A DNA stretch of 64,000 nucleotides, taken from Methylocapsa aurea. Its GTDB lineage: Bacteria; Pseudomonadota; Alphaproteobacteria; Rhizobiales; Beijerinckiaceae. Of the stretch, positions 23,137-42,187 are shown piece by piece. The translations under genes were made by a program, and so were the position numbers. Location: positions 1 through 64,000 of the forward strand of contig NZ_JQKO01000004.1 in NCBI RefSeq assembly GCF_000746085.1, given 5' to 3'. The first letter of the stretch is position 1. Each line of letters opens with the position of its first letter. The notes under the pieces were generated by a model. It worked only from the letters and a program-made list of their open reading frames with translations. It searched no databases and had not been told where the DNA came from.

Positions 23137-23372
23137 ATCGGTGATGGGGCGTGAAGGCTAGCTACTGTGCGAATCAGGCTCTTATGCGAGCGGACGGGCA
23201 AGCGCGCCATGTGCGTGTCCTATTCGAGCGGGCGTGATCCATGTAAGCGTCGAGGGGCAAGGCGGACGACCCAACTGATGCAGCCCGCAATTCATTGCCG
23301 GATTTTGCTGTGCCTGCGCCTGCGGGTTTACGGCCAAGATCAAGAGGAGCCGAGTGTTCTTGTTCGACAAGG

Positions 23373-23594
23373 GACATTCAACGAATCTTAGCCACCGGCG
23401 CGCTCGGCCAGATCGGCTCCGAGCTGGTCCCCACCTTGCCGGAGCGCTACGGCATCGAGCGGGTCGTCGCTTTCGGCGTGCGCATTTCGCCGGCGCAGCT
23501 CTCGGGGCCGGATGGCGTTTACGAGCACCTTCACTGCACGCAGCCGCAGCAGATCTTCGAACTGATGCGCCGCCAAGGCCAGGTCATCGATCGC
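23373..23594 (+). pseudogene. NAD-dependent epimerase/dehydratase fragment
   Basis: A 74-codon stretch encodes ILATGALGQIGSELVPTLPE, then RYGIERVVAFGVRISPAQL and CTQPQQIFELMRRQ. This is the N-terminal Rossmann region of SDR-type epimerases related to bacterial L-threonine dehydrogenase. The catalytic YxxxK part and the rest are missing. The flanks 23137-23372 and 23595-23855 contain nothing I recognise. Confidence 0.5.
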
Positions 23595-23855
23595 ACGCTA
23601 AAAACAGGAGTTATTGGACCTCCCACCTCGATCCGGCTACCGATGCAATTGTAACCTGGACCATTCATTGCCAGTTTGAATGGAACGCGCTCGACTGCAG
23701 CGACCGGAAGCCGGACCTCCACCCCCGTGGCCGGCGTTGGCGCAGACAATGGGGAATCGGCCGGGTCGACTCCGCGGTAGGGCCGGAGGTGCGGCATGAT
23801 CGGCGGCATGACAGCCGTAATTTCCGAGCAGCGCCTTAGTATCCTGGCCCCGCGT

Positions 23856-25289
23856 TCACTCATTGCCGTATTTCAACCAATGAACGCCAAAGACTTCCTC
23901 GGGCGCCACGCGCCGCGGCGCGACCGGGCGGGAGACCCAGGTCAGATTGACGAAATGGCGGACATTGACGTTCTCCGTCGTGATGTTCCCGCCCCAAGTC
24001 CCGCAGGAGAGCGAGAGAGTATAAGGCAGGCCATTGCGGACGCTGCCCGCTCCTTCATTCAAGCTCTGATTGACAATCACGCGCGCCGTCCTTGTGCCAA
24101 AGGCCAAAGTGCGAACGTGATCGTCGCGACTGCTGTGAATGCCGCAAGTATGACCGGCGCCCTGATATGAAGTAATTCGGTTGACGAGGTCGACTGCGCC
24201 GTCGATGCCGCCGCTGTACCGATAGAGCGCCAGGACCACCGACAGCTTCTCCCCGGAGAAAGGATGCGCCTCGCCGACGCCGTCTTCCTCGACCATGAGA
24301 AATGTGCGGTCCGGTGCGAGCTCGATTCCAGCCAGTTCGGCAATGCGCGCGGCGGACTTGGCGACAACCTCGATCGACGGAATGTGCTCGCCCTTCGGCC
24401 ACATCGCAGCCTGCAGACGAGCCTTTTCGGCCGGCGCGCAGACATGACCGCCGCGCTCGACGAGTTTCCGCTTGAGGGCCTCGTAGATAGAGGAATGGGC
24501 GGCGACGGAATTGTCGGCGAGGCAACTCGTTGCATAATCAAAAGTCTTGGCGTTGGCGATCATTTGCGCGGCGTCGTCGAGATCCGCGGTCTCGTCGACG
24601 ACATGCACGGCGTTGCCCACGCCGACGCCATAGGCCGGCGTCCCGGAACTATACGCCGCTTTCACCATTCCCGCGCCGCCAGTTGCAACAATCAAGTCGC
24701 TCATTCGCATCAACAGTTCGGTCTTTGCGATCGACGGCCGTTCGATGACCTGGATGAGGTCGGCTGGCGCTCCGACTTGCAGACATCCCTTGCGCATGAC
24801 CTCGACGACGGCGGCGGATGTCTTCCTGGTCCGGGGATGGGGCGCGATGATAATCGCATTGCGGGCCTTGAGCGCTCCCAACGCCTTGACGGGCGGAGTG
24901 GCGTCCGGCCCTGTCGTGGGAATGAGCGCGGCGATGACGCCGACCGGCTTGGCGATCTTGATCAATCCGCGCGCCGGATCTTCCTCAACGACGCCGCACG
25001 TCTTGATTGACGCCATGTCGGTCAGCGTTCCCATCACGCGGTTGGCGAACTTGGCGACCTTGTCTTGAACGTTGCCAAAGCCGCCCTCTTCGACTGCGAG
25101 CTTCGCCAGCGCTTCTCGCGACTTGTAGACCTGCCACCCTACGGCCGTGACCAGGGCGTCCGCCTCTTCCTGCGCATAATGTTCTATGGCCGCCTGCGCA
25201 ACGCGCGCCCGTCCCACCATCGCTTCTATCTCGCAGCGCGCCTCGTCTTCCGCGGGGACAACAGCGGGAGCCTTAGTGAGCGTCTCCAT
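23856..25289 (-). CDS. Acylating aldehyde dehydrogenase, sulfoacetaldehyde dehydrogenase (SauS)-like
   Basis: A 477-aa CoA-acylating aldehyde dehydrogenase. The start at 25289 (METLTKAPAVV) overlaps the upstream gene by 17 bases and has an AAGGACG site. Features are GVIAALIPTTGPDATPPVKA (cofactor domain), DLIVATGGAGMVKAAYSSG, and FDYATSCLADNSV with the presumed catalytic Cys. The C-terminal GAGSVRNGLPYTLSLSCGTW and NVRHFVNLTWVSRP segments are typical of the EutE/SauS branch. SauS interconverts sulfoacetaldehyde and sulfoacetyl-CoA. As the last gene of the coupled CoM block, a C2-sulfonate substrate is plausible; acetaldehyde is the main alternative. Confidence 0.75.
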   Translation of the reverse strand: METLTKAPAVVPAEDEARCEIEAMVGRARVAQAAIEHYAQEEADALVTAVGWQVYKSREALAKLAVEEGGFGNVQDKVAKFANRVMGTLTDMASIKTCGVVEEDPARGLIKIAKPVGVIAALIPTTGPDATPPVKALGALKARNAIIIAPHPRTRKTSAAVVEVMRKGCLQVGAPADLIQVIERPSIAKTELLMRMSDLIVATGGAGMVKAAYSSGTPAYGVGVGNAVHVVDETADLDDAAQMIANAKTFDYATSCLADNSVAAHSSIYEALKRKLVERGGHVCAPAEKARLQAAMWPKGEHIPSIEVVAKSAARIAELAGIELAPDRTFLMVEEDGVGEAHPFSGEKLSVVLALYRYSGGIDGAVDLVNRITSYQGAGHTCGIHSSRDDHVRTLAFGTRTARVIVNQSLNEGAGSVRNGLPYTLSLSCGTWGGNITTENVNVRHFVNLTWVSRPVAPRRVAPEEVFGVHWLKYGNE

Positions 25290-27390
25290 GGTCTCGTCCT
25301 TCTTGCTCAAGCGACCGGGAAGAATTGACGACGCGCATGCGCGCGTCAACAATAGTGAAATCATCGCCATTGGCGATGATGGGATTGAGATCGAGTTCGC
25401 TAAGCCAGGCCGCGGCGCAGAACCATTGCGACAGGTCCCCGATCAATCGGGCGAAGCGAATGAGGTCGATCGGCGGGCGGCCCCGAAATCCGGCAAGAAC
25501 CTTGTGGCCTTTCAGCTCATCCAACATGGTCCGCGCCTCGTCGGCATCGATCGGCGCCAGACGCAGGGCGACGTCGTCCAGAACTTCCGTCCACACCCCG
25601 CCAAGGCCAGCCATCACGATCGGGCCGAAGAGCGGATCGCGCCGAGCCCCGAGGATCAGCTCCACACCCGGTCCCTCCTGTCGCTGCAAAAGAGCCGGGC
25701 CGGCGCCCAGTCGGCGAGAGAAATCCTCGAATGCCTCGGCGACTGCGGCGCCGTCGGTCAGGCCTAGGCGCACGGCGCCTGCGTCACTCTTATGCGCCAG
25801 CTTAGGACGCTCCGCCTTGAGGACGACCGGAAATTGCATCTTGGCGGCCGCCGCTGCCGCAGCGGCGGGGTCCGTAACCACCATCCAACGCGCCACGGGG
25901 AAGCCCGACTGTTGCAACAGAGAAAATGCCGCGGCGGAGGTCAACCAGCCTGCATCGTCGACAGCGGCTGGCTGGAGAATTGGCTCCCTTGCCGACAGGC
26001 GCGCCAATGGTCGGAGCGGTCGGGAGACGGCGCCCGCAAGAATGGTAGCCGTCGCGCCCGGCCAAGCGTGGCAGGGCACCCCTGCCGCTTGCAGCTTCTT
26101 GCGATTAGCGTCCGCGCTTCGCGGCGCCACCCAGCAGACATGGATCGGCTTGAGCGAGCCCCTCTCACGCGCTCGCGCGCTTGCCGCAATGACGACGTCG
26201 CCAACCTCAGGCATCAGCGCCGAGCGCTGCAGCAGGACCGGAACCACCGCGTCCACTTCCTCGGACGTCATCAGGGCTTCAACCGCAAATTCGTACATTG
26301 CTGCGAAGCGCTCCCAGTCGGTGGCGACATCAATGGGATTGACGGCCGATCCTTGCGGCGGCAGTTGGCTTGCGATCTTTGCTTGCAGGCCCGGCGACAG
26401 AGCCGGCACGGCGAGACCTTTCGACTCCAGGAGATCGGTTAGCTCCACGCCTGTTCCGCCCGAATTGGTGACGATGCCGATATTGCGGCCCCGCAGCGGC
26501 GGCTGGCGATCAAGGGAAGCGGCCACGTCGAGAAGCGCCAGCCCATCTTCGACAAGATGCACGCCTGCTTGACGGAGAGCCGCGAAAATCACGGCCGCGT
26601 CGCCGGAGAGCGCGGCGGTGTGGCTGGCTGCCGCCCGTTGAGCGTCGGGGTGACGCCCTGTCTTCAAGGCGACGATTGGCTTTCTCGTCGCTACCGCCGC
26701 CGCCGCCTCGAACAGCCCGCGGCCATCGGAGATCGATTCCAGCAGCATGGCGACGACTCTCGTCTCGGGGTCCCGCCCCAGAAATTCGAGCAGCTCGACG
26801 TCGTCGAGGTCGAGCTTGTTGCCAAGGGCGACTATCTTGGCGAAGCCGGTGCCGTCATCCGTCGAGCGCCCGTAGGCCGCCATGCCATAGGCGCCGCTCT
26901 GAGTCAGCAGGGAAATGCCCCCGCGTGAAGGCAAGCCGATCGATAGGGAGCCGTTGAGGCCGCAAGCGGTGTTGATGACGCCAAAGCAGTTCGGGCCGAG
27001 AATCCGCACTCCACGCGCAGCCGCCATGCCGGCCACCTCGCGCTGCAACTCGACGCCGCGCCGTCCGGTCTCGGCGAAGCCGCCGCTGATGACGATAGCG
27101 ACAGGGACTCCTGCAGCGCCGCAGTCCGCAATGACGTTTGGCACAGCCGCCGGCGGCGTGACGACGATCGCCAAGTCCACCGGCCCAGGAACGGCCGCAA
27201 GACTGGGATAAGCGGGACACCCCAGAAGCTCGCTGGCCGACGGATGAATCGCGACGACTTCGCCTTCGAAGCCCGCCTCGAGGGCCGTCAGGTTGCGCAG
27301 GAACAAGGCTCCGGCCTTGCGGGGGGAGGCCGAAGCTCCGACGACCGCCACGCGGCGCGGCGCGAACAAGGCGTCCTGCCAATCCGTCAC
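25273..27390 (-). CDS. ADP-forming acyl-CoA synthetase (NDP-forming acetate-CoA ligase family)
   Basis: A 705-aa fused enzyme: CoA-binding domain (VAVVGASASPRKAGALFLRN), succinyl-CoA-ligase-like domains with the phospho-His segment AASHTAALSGDAAV, and a C-terminal ATP-grasp domain (VVLKAERPKLAHKSDAGAVR, LSELDLNPIIANGDD). It reversibly couples acyl-CoA plus ADP and phosphate to acid plus ATP plus CoA. GTG start; the four-base overlap with the PLP-enzyme gene couples it to CoM synthesis. With the acylating aldehyde dehydrogenase after it, it could link sulfoacetate to sulfoacetaldehyde in either direction. Substrate is inferred. Confidence 0.8.
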   Translation of the reverse strand: MTDWQDALFAPRRVAVVGASASPRKAGALFLRNLTALEAGFEGEVVAIHPSASELLGCPAYPSLAAVPGPVDLAIVVTPPAAVPNVIADCGAAGVPVAIVISGGFAETGRRGVELQREVAGMAAARGVRILGPNCFGVINTACGLNGSLSIGLPSRGGISLLTQSGAYGMAAYGRSTDDGTGFAKIVALGNKLDLDDVELLEFLGRDPETRVVAMLLESISDGRGLFEAAAAVATRKPIVALKTGRHPDAQRAAASHTAALSGDAAVIFAALRQAGVHLVEDGLALLDVAASLDRQPPLRGRNIGIVTNSGGTGVELTDLLESKGLAVPALSPGLQAKIASQLPPQGSAVNPIDVATDWERFAAMYEFAVEALMTSEEVDAVVPVLLQRSALMPEVGDVVIAASARARERGSLKPIHVCWVAPRSADANRKKLQAAGVPCHAWPGATATILAGAVSRPLRPLARLSAREPILQPAAVDDAGWLTSAAAFSLLQQSGFPVARWMVVTDPAAAAAAAAKMQFPVVLKAERPKLAHKSDAGAVRLGLTDGAAVAEAFEDFSRRLGAGPALLQRQEGPGVELILGARRDPLFGPIVMAGLGGVWTEVLDDVALRLAPIDADEARTMLDELKGHKVLAGFRGRPPIDLIRFARLIGDLSQWFCAAAWLSELDLNPIIANGDDFTIVDARMRVVNSSRSLEQEGRDHGDAH

Positions 27391-28391
27391 GACATTCCCT
27401 CCACGGCGGCGGTGAACAGGCTCGGAGCCCCACCGGTATGCAGAAAGAGAACGTCATCCGCGCCGGCATATCGGCCTTGCGACAGCAGGGTGCGGTAGCC
27501 GGCCATGGCTTTGCCGGTATAGGTGGGATCGAGGAATACGCCTTCGGCGCGCGCTGTTGCGACAATCGCGCCCTTCCCTTCCGGCGATGGAACACCGTAC
27601 CCCGCTCCAAGGAAACCATCATGGACGAAGAGCTTGACGCTACCGAGCTGCGCGGGACAATCGAGCGCGGCGGCCGCTTCGGCTGCTAAATTCCGGGCCC
27701 GCGACAAAGCTTCGGCTGCCGGCCGGCTGACCGTGATCGCTTCCAGCCGCCAAGTCGCGCCGAACAGCGCCGTTCCCAATAGCCATCCCGCGAGCGTCCC
27801 GGCCCCTCCCACCGCCATAACCACTGCTTGCGGCATGACGCCGAGATCCGCGCATTGTTCGAGGGTCTCGCGCACCGCCAGGACGTGGGCCAGGGCGCCG
27901 AGGGCGCAGGCGCCGCCACGAGGAACGCTAAAAGGCCGGCCGCCCCGCGCGACAACCTTGGCTACGGATGCCTTGATGCCGCGATCCACGGAAGCGCGGT
28001 CCGCATCGCCGGTAAAGACGATCTCGGCCCCGAGCATTCGGGTCAACCAATGGTTTCCTTCGACCCTCGGGGGCGCTGCGCCCCAATAGATGGCGATGCA
28101 ACGCAATCCGGTCATGGCCGCCACACCGGCGCTGGCCCGAACATGGTTCGACAGGGGACCGGCGCCGGTAACCAGAGTGTCTGCGCCTTGACGCAACGCT
28201 TCGGCGACGATGAGATCCAGGGAGCGAACCTTGTTGCCGCCGAATGCAAAAGGAAGAAGATCGTCGCGCTTGAACCACAATTGTGGACCGCCAAGGGCCG
28301 CCGAGAGGCGGCGGGCGGGGGCGAGTGGCGTCGGTTCGCACACGAGCGACAGACGCGGCAGGGCGTCGAGGCTAGCGGTCCAGGCGGTCAC
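27387..28391 (-). CDS. xcbE: PLP enzyme of CoM synthesis, XcbE-like (D-cysteine desulfhydrase family)
   Basis: A 334-aa fold-type II PLP enzyme. The PLP lysine is K54 in FKRDDLLPFAFGGNKVRSLD. Further motifs are GAGPLSNHVRASAG (phosphate/substrate loop) and the C-terminal LHTGGAPSLF. The family includes D-cysteine desulfhydrase and L-cysteate sulfo-lyase. In Xanthobacter a relative (XcbE1) belongs to the bacterial CoM pathway, where a PLP enzyme is reported to perform thiolation. Gene order after comA and two lyases and four-base overlaps on both sides make XcbE the best call; cysteate sulfo-lyase is the main alternative. Confidence 0.8.
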   Translation of the reverse strand: MTAWTASLDALPRLSLVCEPTPLAPARRLSAALGGPQLWFKRDDLLPFAFGGNKVRSLDLIVAEALRQGADTLVTGAGPLSNHVRASAGVAAMTGLRCIAIYWGAAPPRVEGNHWLTRMLGAEIVFTGDADRASVDRGIKASVAKVVARGGRPFSVPRGGACALGALAHVLAVRETLEQCADLGVMPQAVVMAVGGAGTLAGWLLGTALFGATWRLEAITVSRPAAEALSRARNLAAEAAAALDCPAQLGSVKLFVHDGFLGAGYGVPSPEGKGAIVATARAEGVFLDPTYTGKAMAGYRTLLSQGRYAGADDVLFLHTGGAPSLFTAAVEGMS

Positions 28392-29746
28392 GGCGGGCTC
28401 CCTTTGAGAACCCGGTCCACCAGCTCTCGACAGTGCCCGGTTTGGGCCTCGATGGAAAACAGCCGATCGATTTCTTGCGTCTTCAGATGACTGCGGATGT
28501 CTAAATCCTCCGCGACGGCGGCCGCGAAGGGCCTGCCTTCGCGGCGCGCCGCGGCGGCCAGCCGTTGAACCGCACGATGCGCTGTCTGCTTGCCGACGCG
28601 GTGGGCAAGGGCGATCATGAGGGCTTCCGAAAAGAGCAGCCCGCTGGAAGCTTCCATATTGGCGCGCATGCGGTCCGCGCGCACCTCCAGCCCCCCGAGG
28701 AGAGATGCGAGCAGGCTATGGGCCTTGCCCGCCGCCATGGTCAACTCCGGCACGGCGTGCCATTCCACCTTCCACGATCTGCCATCGCGTTCGTGGTCGT
28801 GAACCAGGCCCTCGGCAAGAAGCCCAGCATTTGCCCGCACGACGCGGGCCAGGGTTCCAAGATGTTCGGCCATCTCCGGGTTGCGCTTATGCGGCATGGT
28901 GATGCTGCCGATCCCTTCGGTGCTGGCGCTTTCGCAAAGCTCGCCGATCTCGTCGCGCTGAAGGTTGTAAATCTCGTGCCCGATCCGGTCGGCGGCGCCG
29001 GTGGACAGAACCAGGAGGTGAGCCCATTCGGCGAGGATGTCGCGGCTCGCCGTCCAGGATATATCCGGCTCGCGCAGGCCGAGGCGCCCGAGGAAGCGCC
29101 GCTGCACGGCCAATGCTTCCGGCCCCATGGCCGAAAGGCTGCCGACGCCGCCGCACAGCTGGCCCACTTCCATGCGCCGAGCGGCTTCCTCGAAGCGCTG
29201 TCGATGGCGTCGCAGTTCGGCCAGCCACCCCGCGGCCTTGAACCCGAAGGTGATCGGCAGTCCCTGCTGCCCGTGGGTTCGTCCGGCCATGACCGTATCC
29301 CGGTGGCGTCGGCAGAGGTCCGCCGTCGCCGCCATCGCGCGCTCGAGGTCCGCGACGAGCAAGCCGCGGGCCTCACGCAGCGTCAGCATGAGCCAGGTGT
29401 CCGTAATGTCCTGGACCGTGGCCCCGAAGTAGAACCATTCAGCGCCGGACGCGGAGCATCGGCGCGCGACGGCCGCGATCAAACCGGCCGTCGAGTGGCA
29501 GGTTGCTTCGTATCGTTCCCGGCATTCGGCGAGAAAATCAGCGTCGACATCGATCGACCGGCACGCCGCCTGAATGTCTCGGGCCGCCTCAGCCGGGATA
29601 AGCCCATGTTCGGCTTGCGCTTCCGCGAGCAGGCCCAACAGATCGAGCCATCGCCGCGTTCGCGGCGCATCAGCGAATAGGGCCCTCATCTCTGGGGTGG
29701 CCCACGCGCCGCCGTAGATGGCCGACCCGAATGACCATTCCGTCAC
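28388..29746 (-). CDS. xcbD: Aspartase/fumarase-superfamily lyase of CoM synthesis, XcbD-like
   Basis: A 452-aa lyase of the class II fumarase/adenylosuccinate lyase type. Conserved blocks are FGATVQDITDTW, AGRTHGQQGLPITFGFK and the catalytic serine loop GSITMPHKRNPEMAEH. GTG start, overlapping genes on both sides. Of the two adjacent superfamily members this is second after comA, matching xcbD1 in Xanthobacter. The published bacterial pathway assigns sulfite addition, phosphate elimination, decarboxylation, thiolation and reduction; the step of this protein is inferred to be the one after phosphate elimination. Confidence 0.75.
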   Translation of the reverse strand: MTEWSFGSAIYGGAWATPEMRALFADAPRTRRWLDLLGLLAEAQAEHGLIPAEAARDIQAACRSIDVDADFLAECRERYEATCHSTAGLIAAVARRCSASGAEWFYFGATVQDITDTWLMLTLREARGLLVADLERAMAATADLCRRHRDTVMAGRTHGQQGLPITFGFKAAGWLAELRRHRQRFEEAARRMEVGQLCGGVGSLSAMGPEALAVQRRFLGRLGLREPDISWTASRDILAEWAHLLVLSTGAADRIGHEIYNLQRDEIGELCESASTEGIGSITMPHKRNPEMAEHLGTLARVVRANAGLLAEGLVHDHERDGRSWKVEWHAVPELTMAAGKAHSLLASLLGGLEVRADRMRANMEASSGLLFSEALMIALAHRVGKQTAHRAVQRLAAAARREGRPFAAAVAEDLDIRSHLKTQEIDRLFSIEAQTGHCRELVDRVLKGSPP

Positions 29747-31272
29747 GAGGCGTCTCCCGCGAAAGCCTCCGCCTCGGCATGGAGGCGACGGAGCGCGGCC
29801 TCCCGGTGCGCGCGCGCGACTTCGATCGCGCGGCGGCGCTGGCCGACCGCCTCGAATAGTGCGGCCGCCATCGCCGTCACCTCTTCCGGTGAGGCGCCGC
29901 CAACATCCCTCCGCGACGCGACGCAGGTGGTAGGATTGAGCGCCGCGGCGACCAATTGATCAGTAACGCCATTGAAGGGCAGGCCGGCGGCCCGCAGGGC
30001 GTTGGCGACGTCGCTCGCCGTCGCCGCGGCGAGGGTGCGCTTATTCTCCTCCAGCGCTCCGACGAGACGCCCGACGACGCCGTGCGCGCAACGGTAATCG
30101 ATTCCGACCGCCGCCATCAGACGCTCGGCAAGGTCGGACGCACATGCCGACCGATCGTCCAAGGCGGCAAAAGCGCGCGCCTCGTCCATGCTCAGCCCAT
30201 CCACGCACTCGGCGACGAGCGATGCGGCCTCGCCGGCGGATCGAACGGCATCGGGCGCCGCCTCGTAGGCGAAAAAGCGGTTGTCCATCTGGCCGGAGGG
30301 CGTCCGGGCGGCGGCGGCCATCCCGGCCTGCACGCCGATCAGACGGTTCGCGACAGCCCTGACGAAGGCCAGAGCATATGGGTTGCGCTTGTGCGGCATG
30401 ATCTTGCTCGCCCGCGCATGGCGGTCAGCAAGTCTGACGAACCCGAATTCGGCCGATGCGAAGATCATCAGGTCCTCCGCCAAGCGGTCCAGATTCACCG
30501 CCGCGGTCACGGCGACGGCGGCCGCTTCAAGAGCGATGTCCGCCTGCCACATGGCGTCGCGGGCGTGCCGGACCGGTTGGCGAAAACCCAGGCGGTCCGC
30601 CAGCTTGGGCCGGTCCTGCATCGTCACCGAGCCATTGGAGCTGCCGATGCCCGCGGGGCTCTGGTCGACGCGGTCGTAAAGGGCCTGGACCCGATCAAGG
30701 TCGCGCAGGATCGGCCAGGCGAAGGACTGCAGGTAATGGCCAAATGTGGTCGGTTGGGCCGCCTGCAGATAGGTATAATCGGGCATCAGCGCGTCGCGGC
30801 GTCGCAGCGACGCGGAATTGAGAGCCTCGGCCGCCTTGGCCAGGGCCTCGCCGAGATCAAGCAATTCGTCGCAGAGCGTGAGATGGTAGGCCGTCGTCAG
30901 CGCCTCGCGGCGTGCGCGGGCGACGCCTAGCCAGCCGACCGCCTCGGTGCGTTCGGCGAGCCAAGCCTCCCGATTGGTGTATAGGTCGCCATATTCGGCG
31001 GCCGGAGCGAATGAGGCGCGCGCCTCGTGGAGCGCGAGAAGCGCCGCGACCAAGGCGCGGGCGCTATCGCGGGGGATGACGCCTCGCTCCGCCAGGGTCA
31101 TCGTATGCGCGAGATCAACCCAGCCAATCGTCGTGACCAGACCTTTCTGCGCTTGCAACTCGCGACTAAACGCGATGTCGGTGAGGCGCTTCGACGGCGC
31201 TTCCGTCAACCGTTCACCGACCTCGAGGACGGCCGCGCGCGCGATGTCGCCCAAAGGAATGGTCGGGCTCAT
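29743..31272 (-). CDS. xcbC: Aspartase/fumarase-superfamily lyase, XcbC-like phosphosulfolactate phosphate-lyase
   Basis: A 509-aa lyase of the argininosuccinate-lyase type: [32 protein letters not shown] and the catalytic loop [15 protein letters not shown], with residues that differ from canonical argininosuccinate lyase around the substrate. It starts at ATG 31272 overlapping the end of comA. In Xanthobacter the lyase encoded next to comA (XcbC1) removes phosphate from phosphosulfolactate to give sulfoacrylate. The same neighbour relation here supports that reaction. It is about 50 residues longer than typical family members. Confidence 0.75.
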
Positions 31273-32159
31273 TTTTCGCTCCGGGCGGGTTCGATTCCGA
31301 CTGCGTCCTCAACCCGCGTCGGATCCCAGCGGCCAGAATCCATGGATTGATGGGCGATCGTCGAAAACGTTTCGAAACGCAGGCCGCAGCGCAAGGCTTC
31401 CAGAGCCAGGCATTCTTGCGGTCGGATATTGCCCAGGCTGACATTGGCGCCGAATCGGCAAACCAGATAGGCCTGCTGGGGCCGGAGGGGGGCCTCCCAG
31501 ATAAGGCGAGGAGCAGAGTCCCCGACCAGCCTGATGATCTCATCCAGGAAACCGGTGCGAATGCCGCCTTTCTGGTCGTAGATGCCAATGCCCTGCCCGC
31601 ACTCCCTCCCCTCGATAATCACCCAGGAGGCTCCCCAGGCCAGATCCTTCAAAGCCTGCTCGGCCAGTTCCTCGGCGCCCGGCTGCCGCTTGGGGTCCTT
31701 GCGGCCAACCTCGGTAATGGCGACGAGTCCAGAATCCCGCGCGCACTCAATGACTCGCCGGCGACGGTCGCCGGGCAGGTCGATGGTCCCTTCGGAAATC
31801 TCGACCGCCCGGAACCCCAGGTCTTTCGCGTGTCGCATGAAGACGCGGCAGTGCTGCTGGACGATGGCCGCTTCGAGCAAGGTGCCGCCGGGGTAAGTCA
31901 AGAGGTCGCGCGCATGGAGTAGCGCCAGCTTCTCCTCGAGGATCGGCAGCGGCATCAAGGCCGAGGTGCCAAAGCCGAACTTCCAATGGTCGATGTGCTC
32001 CCCCGCCAGCGCCAAAATGTCTCGCAGGGCGGTGGCGCCGAGGCCGGTGTCGATGACCATCGTGACGCCGGTCGTCCGCGGCCGGCGGATCCTGCGGTTC
32101 ACGATCACGTCAAGGGACCATACGCCCTGCCAGGGCGATCTAAACCCGGTCGATGTCAC
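31269..32159 (-). CDS. comA: Phosphosulfolactate synthase (ComA/XcbB)
   Basis: A 296-aa TIM-barrel enzyme adding sulfite to phosphoenolpyruvate, the first step of CoM synthesis. Family blocks are [95 protein letters not shown] and [15 protein letters not shown] start with GAGGGAG upstream overlaps the preceding gene by 20 bases, and the stop overlaps the next start. This is the anchor gene for calling the block a CoM pathway, because ComA has no common close look-alike. Confidence 0.92.
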
Positions 32160-33078
32160 GCGACAACTCCCTCAACGCCCGTTCGATCATCACCAGGTTC
32201 GCCCCCCACGGGACAACCATGACTTCGCCCTCACGTTCGATGTCGAATTCCCAAAGGCAGCATTTGAGGATTGTCGGCTCACTCCTGCAACCGCCGATCA
32301 CGCGCGGGCACATTTCCACTCGCGGCGGCTCGTCGCCATAGTAGTGACGGTGGAATTGCAGGCTGCGTTCGCAGCCGATCAAGGTCCAGTCATGACGCTC
32401 GGGAGGTCGCTCGTCGAGATAGTAGATCGGAGCGCCGAGGTCCTCGAGGCCTCCCGACCTGCAAGGGACCAGGAACGCGGGCGCCGACATGTTCCGCACC
32501 AAATTCTTCAGGTCTATCCGTTCGAGGACCGGAATGATGGGAGGCAGATCGGCGTAGCTGAGAACGTGGCGAACGAGGTCGAAGAGTTTGGGAGGCTCGG
32601 GAGGAGCCACTTCGACGACCTTGAGAACGAAAGGACTCGGATGGTGGATGAAGTTGACGTGGTCATACTTTCCTTCGCAAATGAGCGTCTGGTCCTTGCT
32701 GACGCCGTGGAGGGCCGCCAGAGCGGCAAGGGCCGACCGGTTTGCGCAATCGGTTTCGGGATCGCGCACATAGATGCACGCTTCAGCAAGGGCCAGGACC
32801 TCCACATGCACAATCGGCGCGAAAAGGGGTTCACGGTCGGAAACATCGACGGCGATGACCGCATGTCCTCCGCCCGGCGCCTTCAGCACGATGAACTCAG
32901 TGCGGCGATAGGCCTCCCGGCCAAGGAAATAGTCAGCAATTCCGTGCTCCGTCATCGGGCCATCGAAAGCTTGGACGCTGACTCCGCGGTAGGGAAGCGG
33001 AACCACGTTGAGCCTCTCCTTGAACAGCGGGCGGGCGGTTTTGGCTTGGGGCGCGAGCAGACCGGCCGATGCGGGCAT
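32140..33078 (-). CDS. Uncharacterised protein opening the CoM biosynthesis block
   Basis: A 312-aa soluble protein without a signal peptide or membrane segment. It has a His-rich segment ([10 protein letters not shown]), a second His run ([14 protein letters not shown]) and clustered cysteines (ILKCCLWEF and the MCPRVIGGC region), which could bind metal. Its 3' end overlaps comA by 20 bases, so it is translated with the CoM genes. I do not recognise a family. Context suggests a role in CoM synthesis, delivery or regulation; the unassigned final reduction step is one candidate, but no nucleotide-binding motif is visible. Confidence 0.7.
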
Positions 33079-33100
33079 AGGACATTCCTCCCTCGCGCCC

Positions 33101-33190
33101 AGAGCATGATGTCTATCATGCTCTCTATCTCTTTGTTTTAACGTATGATCTTATCGAAAAAGTCTGTACGTTTTGGGATCATGCTCTAGG
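33101..33190. repeat. Intergenic palindromic repeat (AGAGCATGAT type)
   Basis: AGAGCATGAT-GTCT-ATCATGCTCT (33101-33124) is a perfect 10-base stem with a four-base loop. About 50 bases on, GATCATGCTCTAG repeats the arm, and AAAGTCTGTACG between them resembles the spacer of dispersed Hyphomicrobiales palindromes. It fills the gap between the CoA-transferase-like genes and the CoM block and may stabilise or attenuate the polycistronic RNA. Confidence 0.6.
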
Positions 33191-34025
33191 TGATTGCGAA
33201 TTCGCGCCGCAGATCCTCGGCGCGAATCTCCTTCTCGTGGACCTTCAGTGGATCGAGCCGCCGGATGAGTTCGACGACCGAGCGCTCCGGCGCCGGAATC
33301 GTCTCGACCTTGGCGGCGAGCCTCGGCGTGAACCCCATGTTCTCCAGAACCTCGTCGAGCGAGGTGTCGCGGTAGACTGCGGTTAGCCGGGCGTGCCCGT
33401 CGGCGTCGAAGTCGAACAGGCCGAGCTCGGTCACAAGCCATTGCGGGCCGCCGCCGCGATGGCCGAGCTCCTTTGCGGGCTGTCCGTCTCGGGTGCGGTG
33501 GCCAAGATTGGTGATAAAATCGCAGTCCTCGACGAGACGGAATCGGCGTTGGCCCTTGGCGTCCTTCGGCGACCGATGGGCCGTGGTCCAAAGGGTGATA
33601 TGGGCTGCGTCGCAGGAAAGGTTGCAGCCGCCGCCGCCGCCGGGCAATTTCAGCTTGATGTTGGGATAGCCCAGCGCCGTCACATTGCAGTTGCCCCATC
33701 GGTCGATCTGTAAGCCGGACAGGAACATTCGTCCCATGCGCCCGGCCGCCGCGAGGTCGAACAGCTCCTCAATGCCAAGCGAGGACGACGCGCCGCGATC
33801 CATCACCCAATCGTTCGAGGTGGGGGCCAGAAAAGGCGGTTCAGGATCGACCCCATAGGTAGCGCCCGCCACCAAGATCATCCGCGGCGCATGGGTTCGC
33901 TTCGCCACATGCATGGCGAGCTGGATCAGCGGCGATCCGAATCCATGGAAGACCAGCGTCCCGTCCGCGATCGTGCGGGTGAGCGCCGCGATCATCATCT
34001 CGCCGAAGGTGCAGCTTGTCGTCAT
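33186..34025 (-). CDS. CoA-transferase-like subunit B
   Basis: A 279-aa protein of the class I CoA-transferase beta type, related to GctB/IpdB: FGEMMIAALTRTIADGTLVF, FLSGLQIDRWGNCNVTALGY, KLPGGGGGCNLSCDA. The start at 34025 overlaps the alpha stop (ATGA). Where class I transferases carry the catalytic Glu after a beta strand (ESG type), this protein reads LVAGATYGVDP with no acid. This recalls IpdAB-type enzymes, which are CoA-transferase folds acting as hydrolases. The likely substrate is an acyl-CoA or 3-oxoacid from the epoxide pathway, by context. Confidence 0.7.
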   Translation of the reverse strand: MTTSCTFGEMMIAALTRTIADGTLVFHGFGSPLIQLAMHVAKRTHAPRMILVAGATYGVDPEPPFLAPTSNDWVMDRGASSSLGIEELFDLAAAGRMGRMFLSGLQIDRWGNCNVTALGYPNIKLKLPGGGGGCNLSCDAAHITLWTTAHRSPKDAKGQRRFRLVEDCDFITNLGHRTRDGQPAKELGHRGGGPQWLVTELGLFDFDADGHARLTAVYRDTSLDEVLENMGFTPRLAAKVETIPAPERSVVELIRRLDPLKVHEKEIRAEDLRREFAIT

Positions 34026-34984
34026 GCCATCGCCTCGTCCATGTAAAGGCGCTTCCAGGCTTCGGCGCCATCGCGCCAAGAGGAAAGACGGGCGCGCGCT
34101 TTTTCGCCGCCGATCTGCGCAAGATAGTCGGCGTGGTCGGGCGCGCCGTGGACAAAGACGGAGAGATACTCGGCCAAGAAGGCGTCGGCGCCCTTGCGGG
34201 CCGCCTCATAGTACAAGACCGTATGGCGTCGATCGTAGGCATAAAAGGGATAACAGGCGGTGGGATGCGCGCCCATCGGGACCTCGCTCACCGCAGTTAC
34301 GTAGAAGTATGGGATGCTGACGCCGCCGAGTTCCTTGAGCCGCGCCGTCGAGACGATCTCCTCGACCGTCGCCAGCACCTCCCGCGACGCCTTTGCGAAA
34401 AGAATATCCGCGACAGGTGGTCCCTGAATCAGCAGGTTGCCCTGGGCATCCCCGTACTGGGCGTGAATGAGGGCGACCTCGGGCTCGATGGCCGGGACGA
34501 GCAACAGCTCTTCGCCGGTAAAGGGGCAAATCATCCGCTTGTACTCGGGGTGAAGCGACGGAAAGCTAGTGCCCCTGACCGACCGGATGGGCAGGAACGG
34601 CAGGCCCTGGATGGCGGCCCGAAGCTGTTGCACAAGAGTATAGCAACAGCTGTCATCAACGCTGACTGCGCCGGATTCGAGCGCGCGCCGATAATTCGGC
34701 GCCATGCCGAAATCCTGCTCGAAGCCGACGTAGCTCTCCGAAGATCGTGAAATGGCGCCGCCGCCGCTCAACAGGTCGATATCGATGCCATGCGCCGAGC
34801 CGACCACGGTGAGACCCTTGACGCCACGGCGCAGGATGGCCCGCAGCAGGGCCATGGGCTCCCGCGAGGAGAGGCCGCCTCCCACCGCGACGACGGAGCC
34901 ATCCTTGACCTGCGCGGCAAGATCGTCGAGGCCCGTGCGCTTATCGGAGTCGACGTAAATGGGTCGTGGCTCGGTCTTGGACAT
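34022..34984 (-). CDS. CoA-transferase-like subunit A
   Basis: A 320-aa alpha subunit (GctA/IpdA type). The start MSKTEPRPIYV at 34984 is preceded by a GGTGAG site; a longer frame lacks one. Blocks are GSVVAVGGGLSSREPMALLR, AISRSSESYVGFEQDFGMAP, EPEVALIHAQYGDAQGNLLI and GAHPTACYPFYAYD. It pairs with the overlapping beta gene. In Xanthobacter-type propylene metabolism the carboxylase yields acetoacetate, which needs activation to acetoacetyl-CoA. A transferase here would fit, unless the missing beta Glu makes the pair a hydrolase. Confidence 0.75.
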   Translation of the reverse strand: MSKTEPRPIYVDSDKRTGLDDLAAQVKDGSVVAVGGGLSSREPMALLRAILRRGVKGLTVVGSAHGIDIDLLSGGGAISRSSESYVGFEQDFGMAPNYRRALESGAVSVDDSCCYTLVQQLRAAIQGLPFLPIRSVRGTSFPSLHPEYKRMICPFTGEELLLVPAIEPEVALIHAQYGDAQGNLLIQGPPVADILFAKASREVLATVEEIVSTARLKELGGVSIPYFYVTAVSEVPMGAHPTACYPFYAYDRRHTVLYYEAARKGADAFLAEYLSVFVHGAPDHADYLAQIGGEKARARLSSWRDGAEAWKRLYMDEAMA

Positions 34985-35007
34985 CTCACCGCCCATTAAA
35001 CTAAAAA

Positions 35008-36600
35008 TCATACGCCCTGCCGCGAGCCGTTGCGAATCAAATCCGCTGCTTTCTCTGCGATCATGATCGTTGGCGCATTCGTGTTGCCGCTTACGATTGT
35101 CGGCATGATCGACGCGTCCACGACGCGCAGTCCCTCGACGCCATGCACTTTGAGATGGGGATCGACGACAGCCATCTCATCAACTCCCATCTTGCAGGTG
35201 CCGGCCAGGTGCCATGTGGTGGAGGCAGCGCGCCTCACGAAGGACTCGATATCCGCATCGCTTCTCAGCTCCGCTCCCGGCGCTATTTCGACGCCTCGGA
35301 TGTCGTCAAAGGGCTTAGCGTACAAAATCCTGAGGTTCCAGCGTACGCCAGCGACGGCGCATCTCATATCGTCGGGCGCACTCAAGTAGTTGAAATCGAT
35401 CATCGGTCGATCAAGAGGGTCGGGCGACGAGAGCGTGACCTCGCCGCGGCTGAGCGGCCGATTCATGTAGGCGGTGAAGGTTACGCCATGCCGGTCTGGC
35501 GGCCCGCCTTCGGGATAGTCAGGAGCCAGCGTCATGAGGAAAAATAGCTGGAGCCCCGGATACGCCTCTTTCGGCTCGCTTTTGACAAACGCTCCCGCCT
35601 CAAGGAAGTTTGACGCGAGCGGGCCGCTGCGATGAGCCGCGTATTCCTGACATGCGGCCGCCTTCGTTTCGTCCGGGAGCGGGGCGAAGGTGAGCGGCCG
35701 CGCGATCTCGCACCGCACTCTTGTATGGAGATGGTCCTGCAGGTTCTTGCCCACGCCTGGAAGATCCAAGCGAATGTCAACCCCTCGCCGTTCAAGCTCG
35801 GCTTTTGGTCCGATCCCGGAAAGCATCAGCAACTGAGGCGAACGCAAAGCGCCGGCTGAAACGATGACCTCGCTAGCAGCGCGCGCCTGCTCCAGGACTC
35901 CGAAGCGGAGATAATCGACGCCAGCGGCTCGGGCGCCGCTGAAATGCAGCTTCGTCGCCTGGGCATGGGTCAGGATGGTCAGGTTCGGACGCGAGCGCGC
36001 CGGGTGGAGATATGCATTGGCGGCGCTACAGCGGGCGCGATTTGCGAGCGTGGCTTGCAAAGGGCCACACCCTTCTTGAAACTCTCCATTGAAGTCTGGG
36101 TTGAATGGGATTCCCACTTCCTCCGCCGCGGCGAGATAGCGTTCGACGAGAGGGTTCGAAGGCAAATGGCTGTCGACATCAAGGGGACCGCCCGTGCCGT
36201 GATAGCGGTCGGAAAGGGTCTTATTGCCTTCCGCTTTCACAAAGTAAGGCAAAACGTCATCGTATCCCCAGCCCTCGTTCCCGCGGCGGCGCCATTCGTC
36301 GTAGTCGCCGCGGTTGCCGCGGATGTAAATCATGTAATTGATGGAGCTCGATCCGCCGAGCACCCGGCCTTGAGGCACAAAGATACGGCGCCCATTCAAA
36401 TGCGCCTGGGGAAGAGTTCTGTCAGCCCAGTCGCAGGGGCTGTCCTGGAGTTGCCCGTAGAATGCCGGTATCCGGATCGAGGGCGCGTCGTCTTCGCCGC
36501 CCGCTTCGAGCAATAATACCCGGCAAGCGGAATCCTCGGTCAACCGGCTTGCCAAGACGCAGCCCGCAGATCCGGCGCCGACAATGATGTAATCGAACAT
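35008..36600 (-). CDS. GMC-family FAD oxidoreductase (choline dehydrogenase-like)
   Basis: A 530-aa flavoprotein starting [20 protein letters not shown] at 36600. GMC signatures are present: [35 protein letters not shown], the catalytic His region [17 protein letters not shown] and the closing [18 protein letters not shown]. Such enzymes oxidise primary or secondary alcohols. Placed between the hydroxypropyl-CoM dehydrogenase and the CoA-transferase genes, it may oxidise a hydroxyalkyl intermediate, perhaps the enantiomer not served by the single SDR, or an alcohol made upstream. Substrate not determinable. Confidence 0.8.
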
Positions 36601-36715
36601 GACCGCTTCCATCACGGGCCGATTCGGTGGCCGGTGCCATTGGTCTTCACCCGATTGCCTTCCGCCCGCTTAGACATCCCAGAACCACCTACCGAAAGCC
36701 ACGTGGTTGCATCGA

Positions 36716-39042
<2,327 letters not shown>

Positions 39043-39088
39043 TTAATCGGGCGTAGAAATCGGTGCTTGTCCTGACGATCGCGCCGGG

Positions 39089-39286
39089 TTAACCGCCGCA
39101 GCAAGGACAACCGGCGCCATGACCTGTCTCCCAGGGATGGGGCTCAGGACGCTTGTTGGGATCTGGCCGCGCGCGGCGACCCCCGCATCCCGAGCATGTC
39201 CACTCGGTGGGCATGCGGGCGCCCTTCAGAACGAAACTCTTCGCAACCCGCCCGCAGTCGGGACAGGCGATCGTATAGACTGGCAT
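39089..39286 (-). CDS. Small double zinc-ribbon protein of the epoxide cluster
   Basis: A 65-aa protein starting MPVYTIACPDCGRVAKSFVL at 39286 with GGAG upstream. It carries two CxxC pairs (CPDCG, CSGCGG) as in FmdB-like zinc ribbons, a Pro/Asn/Arg linker, and a C-terminal WETGHGAGCPCCGG with His and two more cysteines. It lies between the transferase and carboxylase genes on the same strand. It could be a zinc chaperone for the zinc-dependent transferase or a small regulator; neither is proven. Confidence 0.65.
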   Translation of the reverse strand: MPVYTIACPDCGRVAKSFVLKGARMPTEWTCSGCGGRRARPDPNKRPEPHPWETGHGAGCPCCGG

Positions 39287-39343
39287 TTTAGAAGCTCCGG
39301 CGTCAGATGGCGGGGGCGTCAGTGGCCGCGCCATCTGGTCAAG

Positions 39344-40474
39344 TCACTCGGCGGCTACGGCTTGCTGCAGCCTTTCGCGGACCAGCTTGGTCCCTTCGAC
39401 CAGGGCGTGGATCTTGTCCTGCGCAATGTAGCGCTGCAGCAGGATCAGGCCACAGTCTGTGGTGACGCCGAGCCGATCGGCCGGGACGACCCTCAGCAGG
39501 GCGGTGATGCGGTCCGCCACTTCAGCGGCCGTTTCCGTGATCGTGCTCTTGACGTCGATCACCCCGGCCCAGAAGTCGATATTGTCCGGCAGCGGAAATT
39601 CCTTGAAGGCGTCGAGACCTGACATATCATCGACGCGTCTGCCGCAACTCTCAAGATTGAGGACATTGATGCGCGCTTCGTAAGCCTTCGGCACGATCGA
39701 GCGCGTTGCCGCCGGGGCGTTCGCTTTCTCCTTGCGCTTAGTCAAGTCGTAGATCTCGCCAGGCGTGCCGGTCTCGTCCGGATAATAGGCCGGGGTGCCG
39801 CCCCAATTGCCCCAGCAGACATGGACGATAATGCGGGCGTTCTTGACCCCTTCGACCGCCGTGTTGAATGCTTCGATGGCCCAGTCCTCGAAGAAATAGG
39901 GCCAAGTGAACTCATCCAATTGGATGAAGTCGACGCCCAACGCGTCTACCTCCCGAATATCCTCGTTCATGGCCTTCGCGATGGCCAGCGCTCGATCGCG
40001 GGAGTTGCTATAGTAGAGATCGTTCGTACATTGGGCGAGAACCTGGACGCCTGTGTATTGCACCTTGGTCGGTTTACTCGTCGCGCGTTTGAGCGCCCGC
40101 GCCTGCTCGACCATTATGGCGCCGTGCCGCCGAATTTCATGCTCCACCGTCCCAGAATGCAGACGACTATAAATTGGGAAGCCTAGATGATTGCCTCGAA
40201 GATCGTAGCCCAGCCGCCGAAAATAATGGTAGACTGCGGTATCAGCGTAGTTGTCGCCGTGGACGCGTCCATCCGTGATGATGTCGAGGCCAGCGTTTTC
40301 CTGATCCAGGACAACCGCTGCGACGGCGTCTTCGAGAGCTTCGCGGCTCATGGAATCCGGCGGTTCCCGGTCACCCTTGAAATGTCGCGCCCACGTAGCA
40401 TCCCACCAACGTGGGTTGGGGTAATTGCCCACCATGCTGGTTGGAAGTGGGATGTCTTGCCCTCGAATTTTCAT
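39344..40474 (-). CDS. xecA: Epoxyalkane:coenzyme M transferase
   Basis: A 376-aa zinc enzyme of the MetE-like fold, the first step of epoxide use: CoM thiolate opens the epoxide to a hydroxyalkyl-CoM. The start MKIRGQDIPLPTSMVG at 40474 follows a GAGGGAG site. Zinc ligands fit H218 and C220 (IVHVCWGNWGG) with C277 (LNLESCGRR). Further blocks are YPNPRWWDATWARHF, ITDGRVHGDNYADTAVYHYF and FIQLDEFTWPYFFED. The length matches the Xanthobacter enzyme. It is the first gene of the minus-strand cluster, whose promoter must lie in 40475-40710. Confidence 0.93.
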   Translation of the reverse strand: MKIRGQDIPLPTSMVGNYPNPRWWDATWARHFKGDREPPDSMSREALEDAVAAVVLDQENAGLDIITDGRVHGDNYADTAVYHYFRRLGYDLRGNHLGFPIYSRLHSGTVEHEIRRHGAIMVEQARALKRATSKPTKVQYTGVQVLAQCTNDLYYSNSRDRALAIAKAMNEDIREVDALGVDFIQLDEFTWPYFFEDWAIEAFNTAVEGVKNARIIVHVCWGNWGGTPAYYPDETGTPGEIYDLTKRKEKANAPAATRSIVPKAYEARINVLNLESCGRRVDDMSGLDAFKEFPLPDNIDFWAGVIDVKSTITETAAEVADRITALLRVVPADRLGVTTDCGLILLQRYIAQDKIHALVEGTKLVRERLQQAVAAE

Positions 40475-40625
40475 GCCCTCTCTCCCTCGTTGCCCCCCCG
40501 AAGTTGACGCTGGCCTCCGATGCACGACAATTGCGTGAGCGCCAATGTATCCCTTTAACGCTATGACTTAGTTATTAGTTCCTGATTTGGCGTAGCTGCA
40601 CAAAGCAATAAAATCAGAGAGCTAA

Positions 40626-40713
40626 GGCTCTGGTGCAAACAGCGCAAGGGAGGCATATTTGCCGATAAGGGAGCGGCATGCTGAGCGTAGATGATTTGTT
40701 CAAAGGCCGCCAT
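40626..40713 (+). mobile_element. IS6-family remnant (left end)
   Basis: GGCTCTGGTGCAAACAG (40626-40642) resembles the terminal repeat of IS6 elements. 35 bases later an ATG at 40678 opens MLSVDDLFKGRH, the usual IS6 transposase start. The frame is cut after 12 codons by the end of the ISKra4-type element. Confidence 0.6.
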
Positions 40714-42185
40714 TGAGACCGTCTCAAACTTGGGGGTTCTAACCCGCCTGGCATATGGGGGAGCGCGTCGACAGGCCGAGAGCGATATGGTCGCGTTCGA
40801 ATGTTCCGTTCAAGACGGCGGTCAGAACCTTGAGCATGAAGTGCGCTCCTCTCGGCGACCAGCGCATTTGCTGCTTTGCCGTCATCCGCCGATGCAGCAG
40901 TCTATGGACTGCGCTCTCGGTTTGGGCCGTCGAGATTAGCTCGGCTGAACGCCGCGCGGCGGCATAATTGATGATCGAGGAGAATTGTCCCGAGACGTAA
41001 GTCTCGAGATCTCGCAGGATGCCTGTGAGTTTCTTTGAGATAGGCCGCGGTCAGCTGGACTTGGCGCTTTGGCATTTCGATGTCCTGCAAAATCTCGTCG
41101 ATTAGATCAAGAGCCCCTTGGGGGCGGCCGTGCCATAGCAGCCAACGGATCCGTTCAATCTTCTTCGCGAGCAGATCGCCTTGCGGGAGATCCTCGTTGG
41201 TCCCGCGCGGCCAGCTTCGAACCGTTTGGGTCACGTGCTGAACTCGCATCGAAAGATGAAACCAGTCCATAACATGACGCGCCGGACCCGGGCTCGCGGA
41301 TTCACCCAGAAAGCGTGGGCCTTCTACTCCGTCGCTCAACACCGTCACCAGAGTCGCGGGCGTTGCGCCAAGGTCGCGCAGGACGGCGCTGAGCTGCTGA
41401 CGCTGCCGATCCGCCTCGACCGGGACGCTGCAGAACAGCTGCTGCTTCCCTCGGTCGTTACTGGCGCAAGCCAACATGACCTCGAACGATCGCATCTGAT
41501 AGCTTCTGATCGACTTCACATGGCCGCCGTCGAGCGAGACCACGATCGACTGAGCCGATGGCGGACTGGCCAATGGCTTGGCGGCCAGGCTCTGCTGCTC
41601 CAATTTCGCTCCCACCCAAAGGGTTCGCCGTCGCGCCGTTTCGACCGCAGGCGCTTTATCCAGGGGTAGAAACTCGGCCATCAAGGCCGCCGCGCGGCCT
41701 TAAGCGGCCAAGCTCCTTATTTTGACGAGAATGCGCTCGTATTCTTGTGTGCATCGATCCCGCATGATCTCAGCCAGCGGGCTGACAATTCGGCGCGAGG
41801 CGACTCCACAACGGCAGGGATTGAGGCGAGGCGCCTCGACTTTCACGACCCCGAACAATGTCGTCAGCTGCCGGGTGCGCCCGTCCTTGATGGCGCGACG
41901 GGAGCCGCAATGCGAACAAATGCGCCTATGATCACAATATTCATCGGCTTGGGCTTGAACCAGCTCGGTCTGCATGGCGGCCAGAACTGACTTGCCCTCG
42001 GCCAAGGTCAGCCCAATGTCCTCTGGAAAGATCGCGCTTGTCGGTCGGTGGCCAGTCACCAGCTCACGCGTCTCCACGTTCCCGTTTGCCTCTGTCAGCT
42101 CCAGCAAAACCCGCCACTTCATTCCACGTCCCCAGGTCAATAACGACCAGAAACCTATAGCACCCCCAAGTTTGAGACGGTCTCA
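40714..42185 (-). mobile_element. ISKra4-type insertion sequence
   Basis: About 1.47 kb bounded by inverted repeats: GAGACCGTCTCAAACTTGG near 40715 on the plus strand and the same on the minus strand ending near 42184. It contains one decayed transposase gene. The left end interrupts an IS6 transposase and the right end interrupts a small plus-strand gene, so the flanks are not one continuous gene. No clear target duplication was found. Confidence 0.75.
40739..42140 (-). pseudogene. ISKra4-type transposase, nonsense codon and frameshift
   Basis: The N-terminal part (42140-41703) has the zinc-finger segment ICSHCGSRRAIKDGRTRQL and APRLNPCRCG. An in-frame TAA at 41700-41702 interrupts it before LMAEFLPLDKA. 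The catalytic part follows (IVVSLDGGHVKS, HVMDWFHLSMRVQHV). Near 41035 the frame shifts by one, after which LTGILRDLETYVSGQFSS and QQMRWSPRGAHFMLKVL continue to a stop at 40739. With both lesions the transposase is probably inactive. Confidence 0.8.
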
Positions 42186-42187
42186 TC

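Follow-up and report, generated by a model that had tools for sequence, protein, structure and literature searches.

The first 64,000 nucleotides of contig NZ_JQKO01000004.1 of Methylocapsa aurea (contig 3 of a 3.97 Mb assembly in 34 contigs), here called the window, carry a cluster of 14 genes which appears to be an ethylene-type operon for coenzyme M (CoM)-dependent epoxide conversion in a Methylocapsa-like methanotroph. From the sequence comparisons we give this reading a probability of about 0.72. All 14 genes are on the minus strand and are tightly packed at positions 23856–40525. All 14 frames are open and display no internal stop codons (as read from open reading frames, with start codons of our choice). 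Nine of the 13 junctions are overlaps, seven of them of 4 bases, and the remaining four are gaps of 9, 55, 100 and 107 bases; because the junctions overlap or are short, a single transcription unit is likely. A previous sequence-only reading of this DNA proposed that CoM biosynthesis and a CoM-dependent epoxide pathway are found here in one cluster, which is borne out. That reading lacked the methanotroph host and the fact that this kind of cluster was already published in 2024 (PMC11507031), where EtnE clusters (>65% identity) are described in 14 of 150 methanotroph genomes, M. aurea among them.

EtnE, the epoxyalkane:CoM transferase (EaCoMT), is predicted at positions 39344–40474 and has a chain length of 376 amino acids when read from the ATG at 40474, the end given earlier; its open reading frame opens at 40525. 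The aa sequence displays 77% identity to the 2-hydroxypropyl-CoM lyase of Xanthobacter autotrophicus Py2, 49% to the Nocardioides JS614 sequence and 47.5% to that of Mycolicibacterium chubuense NBB4. The other 27 among the best 30 of 257 records show 27.9–30.8%. This gap in identity would place EtnE with the characterised EaCoMTs and apart from the methionine synthases. The HxC...C motif, whose residues we take to be zinc ligands, is kept in a seven-row alignment. In JS614 the EtnE match is split over two frames (L011:20001–21154).

The second key enzyme, at positions 37456–39033, is a homologue of the NADPH:2-ketopropyl-CoM oxidoreductase/carboxylase family (2-KPCC). Against the PDB it scores 796–802 bits with 2-oxopropyl-CoM reductase entries (802 with 1mo9) and 108 bits with the next family, which puts it with the characterised family. 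The sequence is the same as that of Py2 at 13 of 14 checked positions, including C82, C87, F501, H506, R56, R365, H84, H137, M140 and Q509. The alignment thus displays the cysteine pair, the Phe/His replacing the dyad and the arginine pair that mark the family; we take C82 and C87 to be the redox cysteines, Phe501 and His506 to stand in place of the usual dyad, and the arginine pair to bind CoM. Inner branches with good support are few in trees of EtnE (3 of 12; built without methionine synthases) and of 2-KPCC (3 of 8), and no supported set contains the window sequence.

The gene at positions 36716–37459 encodes a short-chain dehydrogenase/reductase (SDR) that appears to be an R-type 2-hydroxyalkyl-CoM dehydrogenase. 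It scores 242 bits with the 2-(R)-hydroxypropyl-CoM dehydrogenase (HPCDH) 2cfc and 127 bits with 4gh5, which we take to be the S-HPCDH. R152, R196 and the S-Y-K triad are present and the S-type R..KY residues are replaced. R152 and R196 presumably form the sulfonate site of R-HPCDH, and the R and S names of the Py2 SDRs are likewise used here as an assumption. The earlier identification of EtnE, 2-KPCC and an R-type HPCDH on one strand therefore stands.

The five CoM biosynthesis proteins, XcbA to XcbE, are all above the NCBIfam cut-offs and their genes are contiguous in the order A-B-C-D-E. XcbA (DUF7714, PF24830; positions 32140–33078) scores 486 bits with NF052538 (cut-off 150) and XcbB, the ComA-type phosphosulfolactate synthase (31269–32159), 304.7 bits with TIGR03849 (cut-off 280). 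XcbC (29743–31272), a member of the aspartase/fumarase superfamily with a predicted role in phosphate elimination, scores 807.5 bits with NF052535 (cut-off 575); XcbD (28388–29746), of the same superfamily, 669.5 bits with NF052536 (cut-off 600); and XcbE (27387–28391), a pyridoxal phosphate enzyme, 528 bits with NF052537 (cut-off 450). Together, these five proteins should give the cell its own CoM. The order xcbB-C-D-E is identical to that in Py2, as had been proposed.

XcbA, of 312 aa, had been regarded as an extra gene outside the described set, but a homologue adjoins xcbB in Py2, JS614 and NBB4. In M. chubuense NBB4 the protein next to phosphosulfolactate synthase shares 41% identity with the XcbA of the window; by position and length this protein looks like the xcbF1 of PMC8727900, as far as the available part of that paper describes it. 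The Py2 counterpart of XcbA lies in two different frames (L010:24810–25666), at a place where the plasmid record lists no gene. An AlphaFold model built with eight sequences has a mean pLDDT of 63.7, and a Foldseek search of the PDB with this model gives no match at E 0.001. The sequence itself has a single PDB match, at E 0.48.

A glutaconate-type CoA-transferase is encoded by two adjacent genes. Subunit A (34022–35011) displays the Pfam CoA_trans domain and matches PDB entries 5mzw and 1poi; subunit B (33186–34025, from the ATG at 34025 in an open reading frame that starts at 34079) has a weak CoA_trans match below the cut-off and 49% identity to JS614. An ADP-forming acyl-CoA synthetase (25273–27390) displays the ATP-grasp_5 and Succ_CoA_lig domains and is 46% identical to JS614. 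According to the part of PMC6440738 available to us, ethylene degraders have one SDR together with a CoA-transferase and synthetase and form acetyl-CoA, whereas propylene degraders have both R- and S-HPCDH, lead to acetoacetate or acetone and have no CoA-transferase. By that description the window has the ethylene-type set. The host genome has no close S-HPCDH; besides the SDR of the window (38%), its SDRs are at most 37% identical to the Py2 S-HPCDH among the matches listed, so that the R and S pair of propylene degraders was not found there. Because one HPCDH, the CoA-transferase pair and the synthetase make up the ethylene-type set in that account, acetyl-CoA is the likelier product. The ketoacid that the sequence-only reading predicted from the epoxide is the propylene outcome.

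Three further genes complete the operon. A small zinc-ribbon protein is found at positions 39089–39334, next to etnE; its match to Pfam Zn_ribbon_8 is weak (21.9 bits, cut-off 34.4), however a counterpart in Py2 is 49% identical over 53 residues, and homologues are at the same place in the related clusters described below. Positions 35008–36615 encode a GMC-family flavin alcohol oxidase/dehydrogenase, at 597.5 bits just below the cut-off of 605 for the choline dehydrogenase subfamily. The last gene (23856–25289, from the ATG at 25289 in an open reading frame that starts at 25370) is predicted to encode a CoA-acylating aldehyde dehydrogenase. It resembles SauS, the acylating sulfoacetaldehyde dehydrogenase, but at 517.5 bits does not reach the NF047625 cut-off of 600, and it is 70% identical to JS614. 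The claim that extra genes go beyond the described set holds for the GMC protein, which has no match in the Py2, JS614 and NBB4 stretches. It does not hold for the CoA-transferase pair, the synthetase and the acylating dehydrogenase, which have counterparts in JS614 and in PMC11507031, or for the zinc ribbon.

By its gene content the host is a methanotroph, with one AMO/PmoA-family gene in a pmoCAB-like run of open reading frames. A soluble di-iron monooxygenase hydroxylase (PF02332) was not detected in the host genome; the same model detects it in all three alkene-degrader plasmids and in two of eight genomes. The dedicated alkene monooxygenase of alkene growers was thus not detected, and the locus has the form of a methanotroph epoxyethane cluster, i.e. 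one found in a methanotroph that lacks an alkene monooxygenase. The epoxide is probably a by-product of the methane monooxygenase. This agrees with PMC10672854, in which the Methylocapsa-like genomes examined, with the metagenome-assembled genome (MAG) USCalpha AHI treated as such, have one pmoCAB and no soluble methane monooxygenase. According to the same paper, acetate supports growth of M. aurea and of strain D3K7 but not of three other Methylocapsa.

The proposed pathway would begin with the particulate methane monooxygenase (pMMO), which would unavoidably epoxidise ethylene to epoxyethane. EtnE would couple epoxyethane to CoM supplied through XcbA-E, and the resulting hydroxyethyl-CoM would be oxidised by the R-type SDR, the GMC flavoenzyme or both. 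The oxidised product may reach the acyl-CoA level by way of the acylating dehydrogenase, or as a free acid by way of the CoA-transferase and synthetase. Reductive cleavage of the thioether by the 2-KPCC homologue would then yield free CoM and acetyl-CoA. The genes, their order, their key residues and the gene content of the host are observed; the rest of the scheme (expression, the substrate, each reaction and the sequence of the middle steps) is inferred. Detoxification of epoxyethane is taken as the primary role, as PMC11507031 argues for epoxyethane made by pMMO. The host could probably also assimilate the acetyl-CoA, since it has an isocitrate lyase (1067 bits with NF005074, cut-off 446).

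The distribution of the cluster was analysed in 397 genomes of the family, sampled evenly out of a larger set, and in 14 control genomes. Seven of the 397, the window's included, are above the XcbC cut-off and none of the controls are, in keeping with the rarity of bacterial CoM use stated in the sequence-only reading. At E 0.001 the same model matches 390 of the family genomes and all 14 controls, which we attribute to related lyases. In a further carrier, G172, xcbC is in two pieces, each below the cut-off. Full-length EtnE at 86–100% identity is present in 3 of 15 genomes of the window's own genus (three more match only at 26–32%), and five genomes of a second genus of the family, g18, carry the cluster. 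A PmoA-family gene is found in all eight carriers (cut by the contig end in G172) and in 15 of the 20 genomes searched. The eight also have a marker of one acetyl-CoA assimilation route each: isocitrate lyase in the three own-genus carriers and crotonyl-CoA reductase, above the cut-off, in the five g18 carriers. Carbon gain from ethylene is plausible in such hosts because of these enzymes and the use of acetate by M. aurea and D3K7.

Within the own genus, G198 has all 14 genes of the window in the same order at 83–91% identity. In G172, EtnE, 2-KPCC and the SDR are on one contig and the genes from GMC through the dehydrogenase on another. A contig of the USCalpha AHI MAG (L003) also carries the cluster, with the same identities and match end as G172 (L020), which places the MAG in the same genus as the window host. 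The xcbC of the MAG spans two frames, possibly through an error of assembly. The carriers in PMC11507031 are mostly from wetlands and rice paddies, whereas USCalpha AHI is an upland Arctic soil methanotroph; the main text of that paper does not contain 'USC', and the announcement of the MAG does not mention coenzyme M, epoxide or ethylene.

In all five g18 carriers the genes for EtnE, the zinc ribbon, GMC, the CoA-transferase pair, XcbA-E and the synthetase are contiguous. The 2-KPCC and an S-type SDR are located divergently upstream in four of the five, and the fifth, G281, lacks both. Close HPCDHs (typed R or S in relatives by a reading of their residues, with the G172 SDR left out) are therefore R-type in the window and G198, i.e. 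two of three own-genus carriers, and S-type in four of five g18 carriers, at 56–58% identity to the Py2 S-HPCDH. Dehydrogenases of opposite hand in two genera are what an achiral C2 substrate, 2-hydroxyethyl-CoM, would allow; both hands of epoxypropane would call for both types.

The GMC protein is present in all eight related clusters, the window's included. None of the 41-kb stretches compared (Py2, JS614, NBB4) has a match to it, the rest of those genomes not having been searched for it. The term 'GMC' is absent from the main text of PMC11507031 and from the available parts of PMC6440738 and PMC8727900, no literature search having been aimed at GMC in etnE clusters. Of nine genomes or records searched for the acylating dehydrogenase, three have a close copy, and these three belong to the own genus. 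A sulfoacetaldehyde-dehydrogenase-like protein is assigned to CoM synthesis in PMC11507031. That five genomes keep XcbA-E without a close copy argues against a general need for this dehydrogenase in CoM synthesis. Its place, in CoM synthesis or in epoxide breakdown, thus becomes testable in the window, where both it and XcbA are present, as does the role of the conserved GMC and zinc-ribbon proteins.

Several observations weigh against the ethylene-type reading. The 2-KPCC keeps the checked carboxylase residues and looks like a true carboxylase, which also fits propylene, and the enzyme may differ between genera, as a Tyr occupies the His506 position in four of four g18 genomes (L033-L036, L039-L042), with Phe501 kept. 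The residues of R-HPCDH in the SDR are no proof of activity on hydroxyethyl-CoM. R196 by itself does not discriminate, being Arg in three of four g18 S-type enzymes also, so that the R/S distinction falls to R152; two of these four have Arg in place of the S-type Lys. The roles given to GMC and the acylating dehydrogenase rest on gene neighbourhood, for GMC its presence in all eight related clusters and a GMC-like protein of another subfamily that adjoins the cluster in a Porisulfidus MAG. A search for the dehydrogenase gives no more than partial matches of 24–29% in the five g18 genomes and nothing on the Py2 plasmid. In G281, a 99% complete genome with EtnE, XcbA-E, GMC, the CoA-transferases and the synthetase (L043, L044), no 2-KPCC (best match 33%) and no close HPCDH are found, and release of CoM there is unexplained by the 2-KPCC route.

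These points have to be set beside three other explanations. A propylene-type operon, in which epoxypropane would be converted to 2-ketopropyl-CoM and by 2-KPCC to acetoacetate, the CoA-transferase activating the latter, agrees with the identities to Py2 (EtnE 77%, 2-KPCC 68%, SDR 50%) and with the 13 shared 2-KPCC positions, F501 and H506 included. It is unlikely, as the host has no close S-HPCDH among the matches listed, the CoA-transferase and synthetase are an ethylene mark in the available part of PMC6440738, and four g18 relatives have solely the opposite HPCDH type near the cluster. Alternatively, CoM may be a consumable thiol that traps epoxides, the conjugate being excreted and no carbon recovered. 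Methylohalobius crimeensis, a methanotroph that is harmed by ethylene and does not grow on it (PMC11507031), G281, and the Porisulfidus-type loci described below, which have no 2-KPCC match in the compared stretch, would all suit such a use. The full downstream set in the window, 2-KPCC included, is however open and tightly spaced, and purely protective use is accordingly quite improbable there. That the genes are a silent or decaying acquisition is very improbable: a remnant of an insertion sequence about 170–220 bases upstream of etnE, other mobile genes nearby and the lack of a regulator beside the operon among the open reading frames given to Pfam and NCBIfam (no MEDS-specific model was among those used) point that way, but all 14 frames are open and G198 has the same 14 genes in the same order at 83–91% identity.

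The ethylene-type reading can be extended, tentatively and with more doubt than confidence, to a carbon-gaining C2 pathway in Beijerinckiaceae methanotrophs that use the serine cycle, one Arctic oxidiser of atmospheric methane among them. The GMC oxidase and the acylating dehydrogenase would form CoM-S-CH2-CO-SCoA, the 2-KPCC homologue would split this without carboxylation to acetyl-CoA, and trace ethylene would be a co-substrate and not just a poison. Since ethylene inhibits methane oxidation in soils (PMC11507031), it matters for the methane sink which methanotrophs can remove epoxyethane.

The GC content of the cluster is 64.1%, compared with 60.7% and 59.4% for its left and right flanks and 60.1% for the first 20 kb of the pmo contig. 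Directly upstream of etnE is a decayed ISKra4-type insertion sequence (40695–42204) with a 47-nt inverted repeat, 81% complementary, and a partial transposase (40902–41684; 87.6 bits of a cut-off of 205). A DDE transposase piece is found to the left of the cluster. On the right, the reading frame of a serine recombinase (42614–44202, plus strand) is disrupted, its parts lying in two frames, and positions 50471–51538 encode an ArdC-like anti-restriction protein; these two suggest an island-like setting. The window was also compared with six relatives, over about 40 kb each, and with two pieces of G172 contigs. At E 1e-5, 78 open reading frames within the cluster have a match (at least 100 aa, counted between stops), and none that lies entirely outside it does. 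Since part of the G198 stretch is N, the result points only weakly to separate insertion sites. An Rfam search of 23000–42000 gave no match at gathering scores.

Other neighbours are an ECF-type sigma factor (22444–23136) beyond the 3′ end of the operon and a complete-looking Qat defence system (51648–56599, minus strand; QatA 988, QatB 347, QatC 634, QatD 395 bits). The latter adjoins a type IIG restriction-modification enzyme (47161–50064), with a SIR2-like protein (44405–46822) displaying weak STAND matches nearby. An MmoC-like reductase (18051–19079) was considered as part of an alkene monooxygenase and rejected: it scores 416 bits, below the cut-off of 500, and no hydroxylase is found in the genome or among the window open reading frames scanned, which are a part of the total. 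It adjoins a hybrid-cluster (prismane) protein (18051–20864 together, minus strand), and the two are probably an Hcp/Hcr-type pair outside any monooxygenase.

Compared with known systems, the propylene cluster of Py2 pXAUT01 (L010) has matches to nine of the 14 window genes, the same xcbB-E order and a zinc ribbon after EtnE. It differs in having R- and S-type SDRs (by residues) and a di-iron monooxygenase, and its 41-kb stretch has no match to GMC, either CoA-transferase subunit, the synthetase or the acylating dehydrogenase. In the ethene cluster of JS614 pNOCA01 (L011) 12 of 14 genes are matched, the acylating dehydrogenase at 70%; GMC and the zinc ribbon have no match, and a di-iron monooxygenase is on the plasmid. 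R152 and R196 are missing from its SDR, which carries the S-type Lys and Tyr. The gene order and strands in JS614 differ from those of the window. NBB4 (L012) matches 11 of 14 and has two SDRs, one with R-type residues; its monooxygenase is adjacent and GMC, the zinc ribbon and the acylating dehydrogenase have no match in the stretch.

Six MAG loci (L004-L009), two titled Candidatus Porisulfidus, three Gammaproteobacteria and one Nitrospira, with sponge named in the L004 title, represent a further arrangement. All six have XcbA-E, the CoA-transferase pair and the acylating dehydrogenase, and five have EtnE and the zinc ribbon in its usual position (the L009 sequence begins too late to include them). 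At E 1e-5 the compared stretches have no match to 2-KPCC, HPCDH, GMC or the synthetase. The cluster is preceded in L004 and L006 by a lipoamide-dehydrogenase-like gene and followed by one for a GMC-like protein that belongs to another subfamily (families checked in L004). CoM in sponge symbionts is not mentioned among the literature matches listed.

The closest likeness is to M. crimeensis (PMC11507031), which has pMMO and no alkene monooxygenase, EtnE, one SDR, the CoA-transferase pair, the synthetase, CoM synthesis, a sulfoacetaldehyde-dehydrogenase-like protein and an island-like setting, and in which 11 of 13 corresponding proteins are raised by ethylene. It has a MEDS regulator, absent from other methanotroph clusters. 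The main text of that paper contains neither 'GMC' nor 'choline dehydrogenase' and names no XcbA homologue in M. crimeensis, whereas the window encodes both a GMC protein and XcbA. To the published picture the present comparison adds GMC in eight of eight clusters, dehydrogenases of opposite hand, five XcbA-E genomes in which the acylating dehydrogenase has no close copy, the cluster in the USCalpha AHI MAG, and isocitrate lyase or crotonyl-CoA reductase in eight of eight hosts. According to the same paper M. crimeensis has neither isocitrate lyase nor an ethylmalonyl-CoA pathway, in contrast to the window host with its isocitrate lyase; it thus becomes testable whether, other than in M. crimeensis, ethylene is a source of carbon for hosts equipped with a glyoxylate shunt or an ethylmalonyl-CoA pathway.

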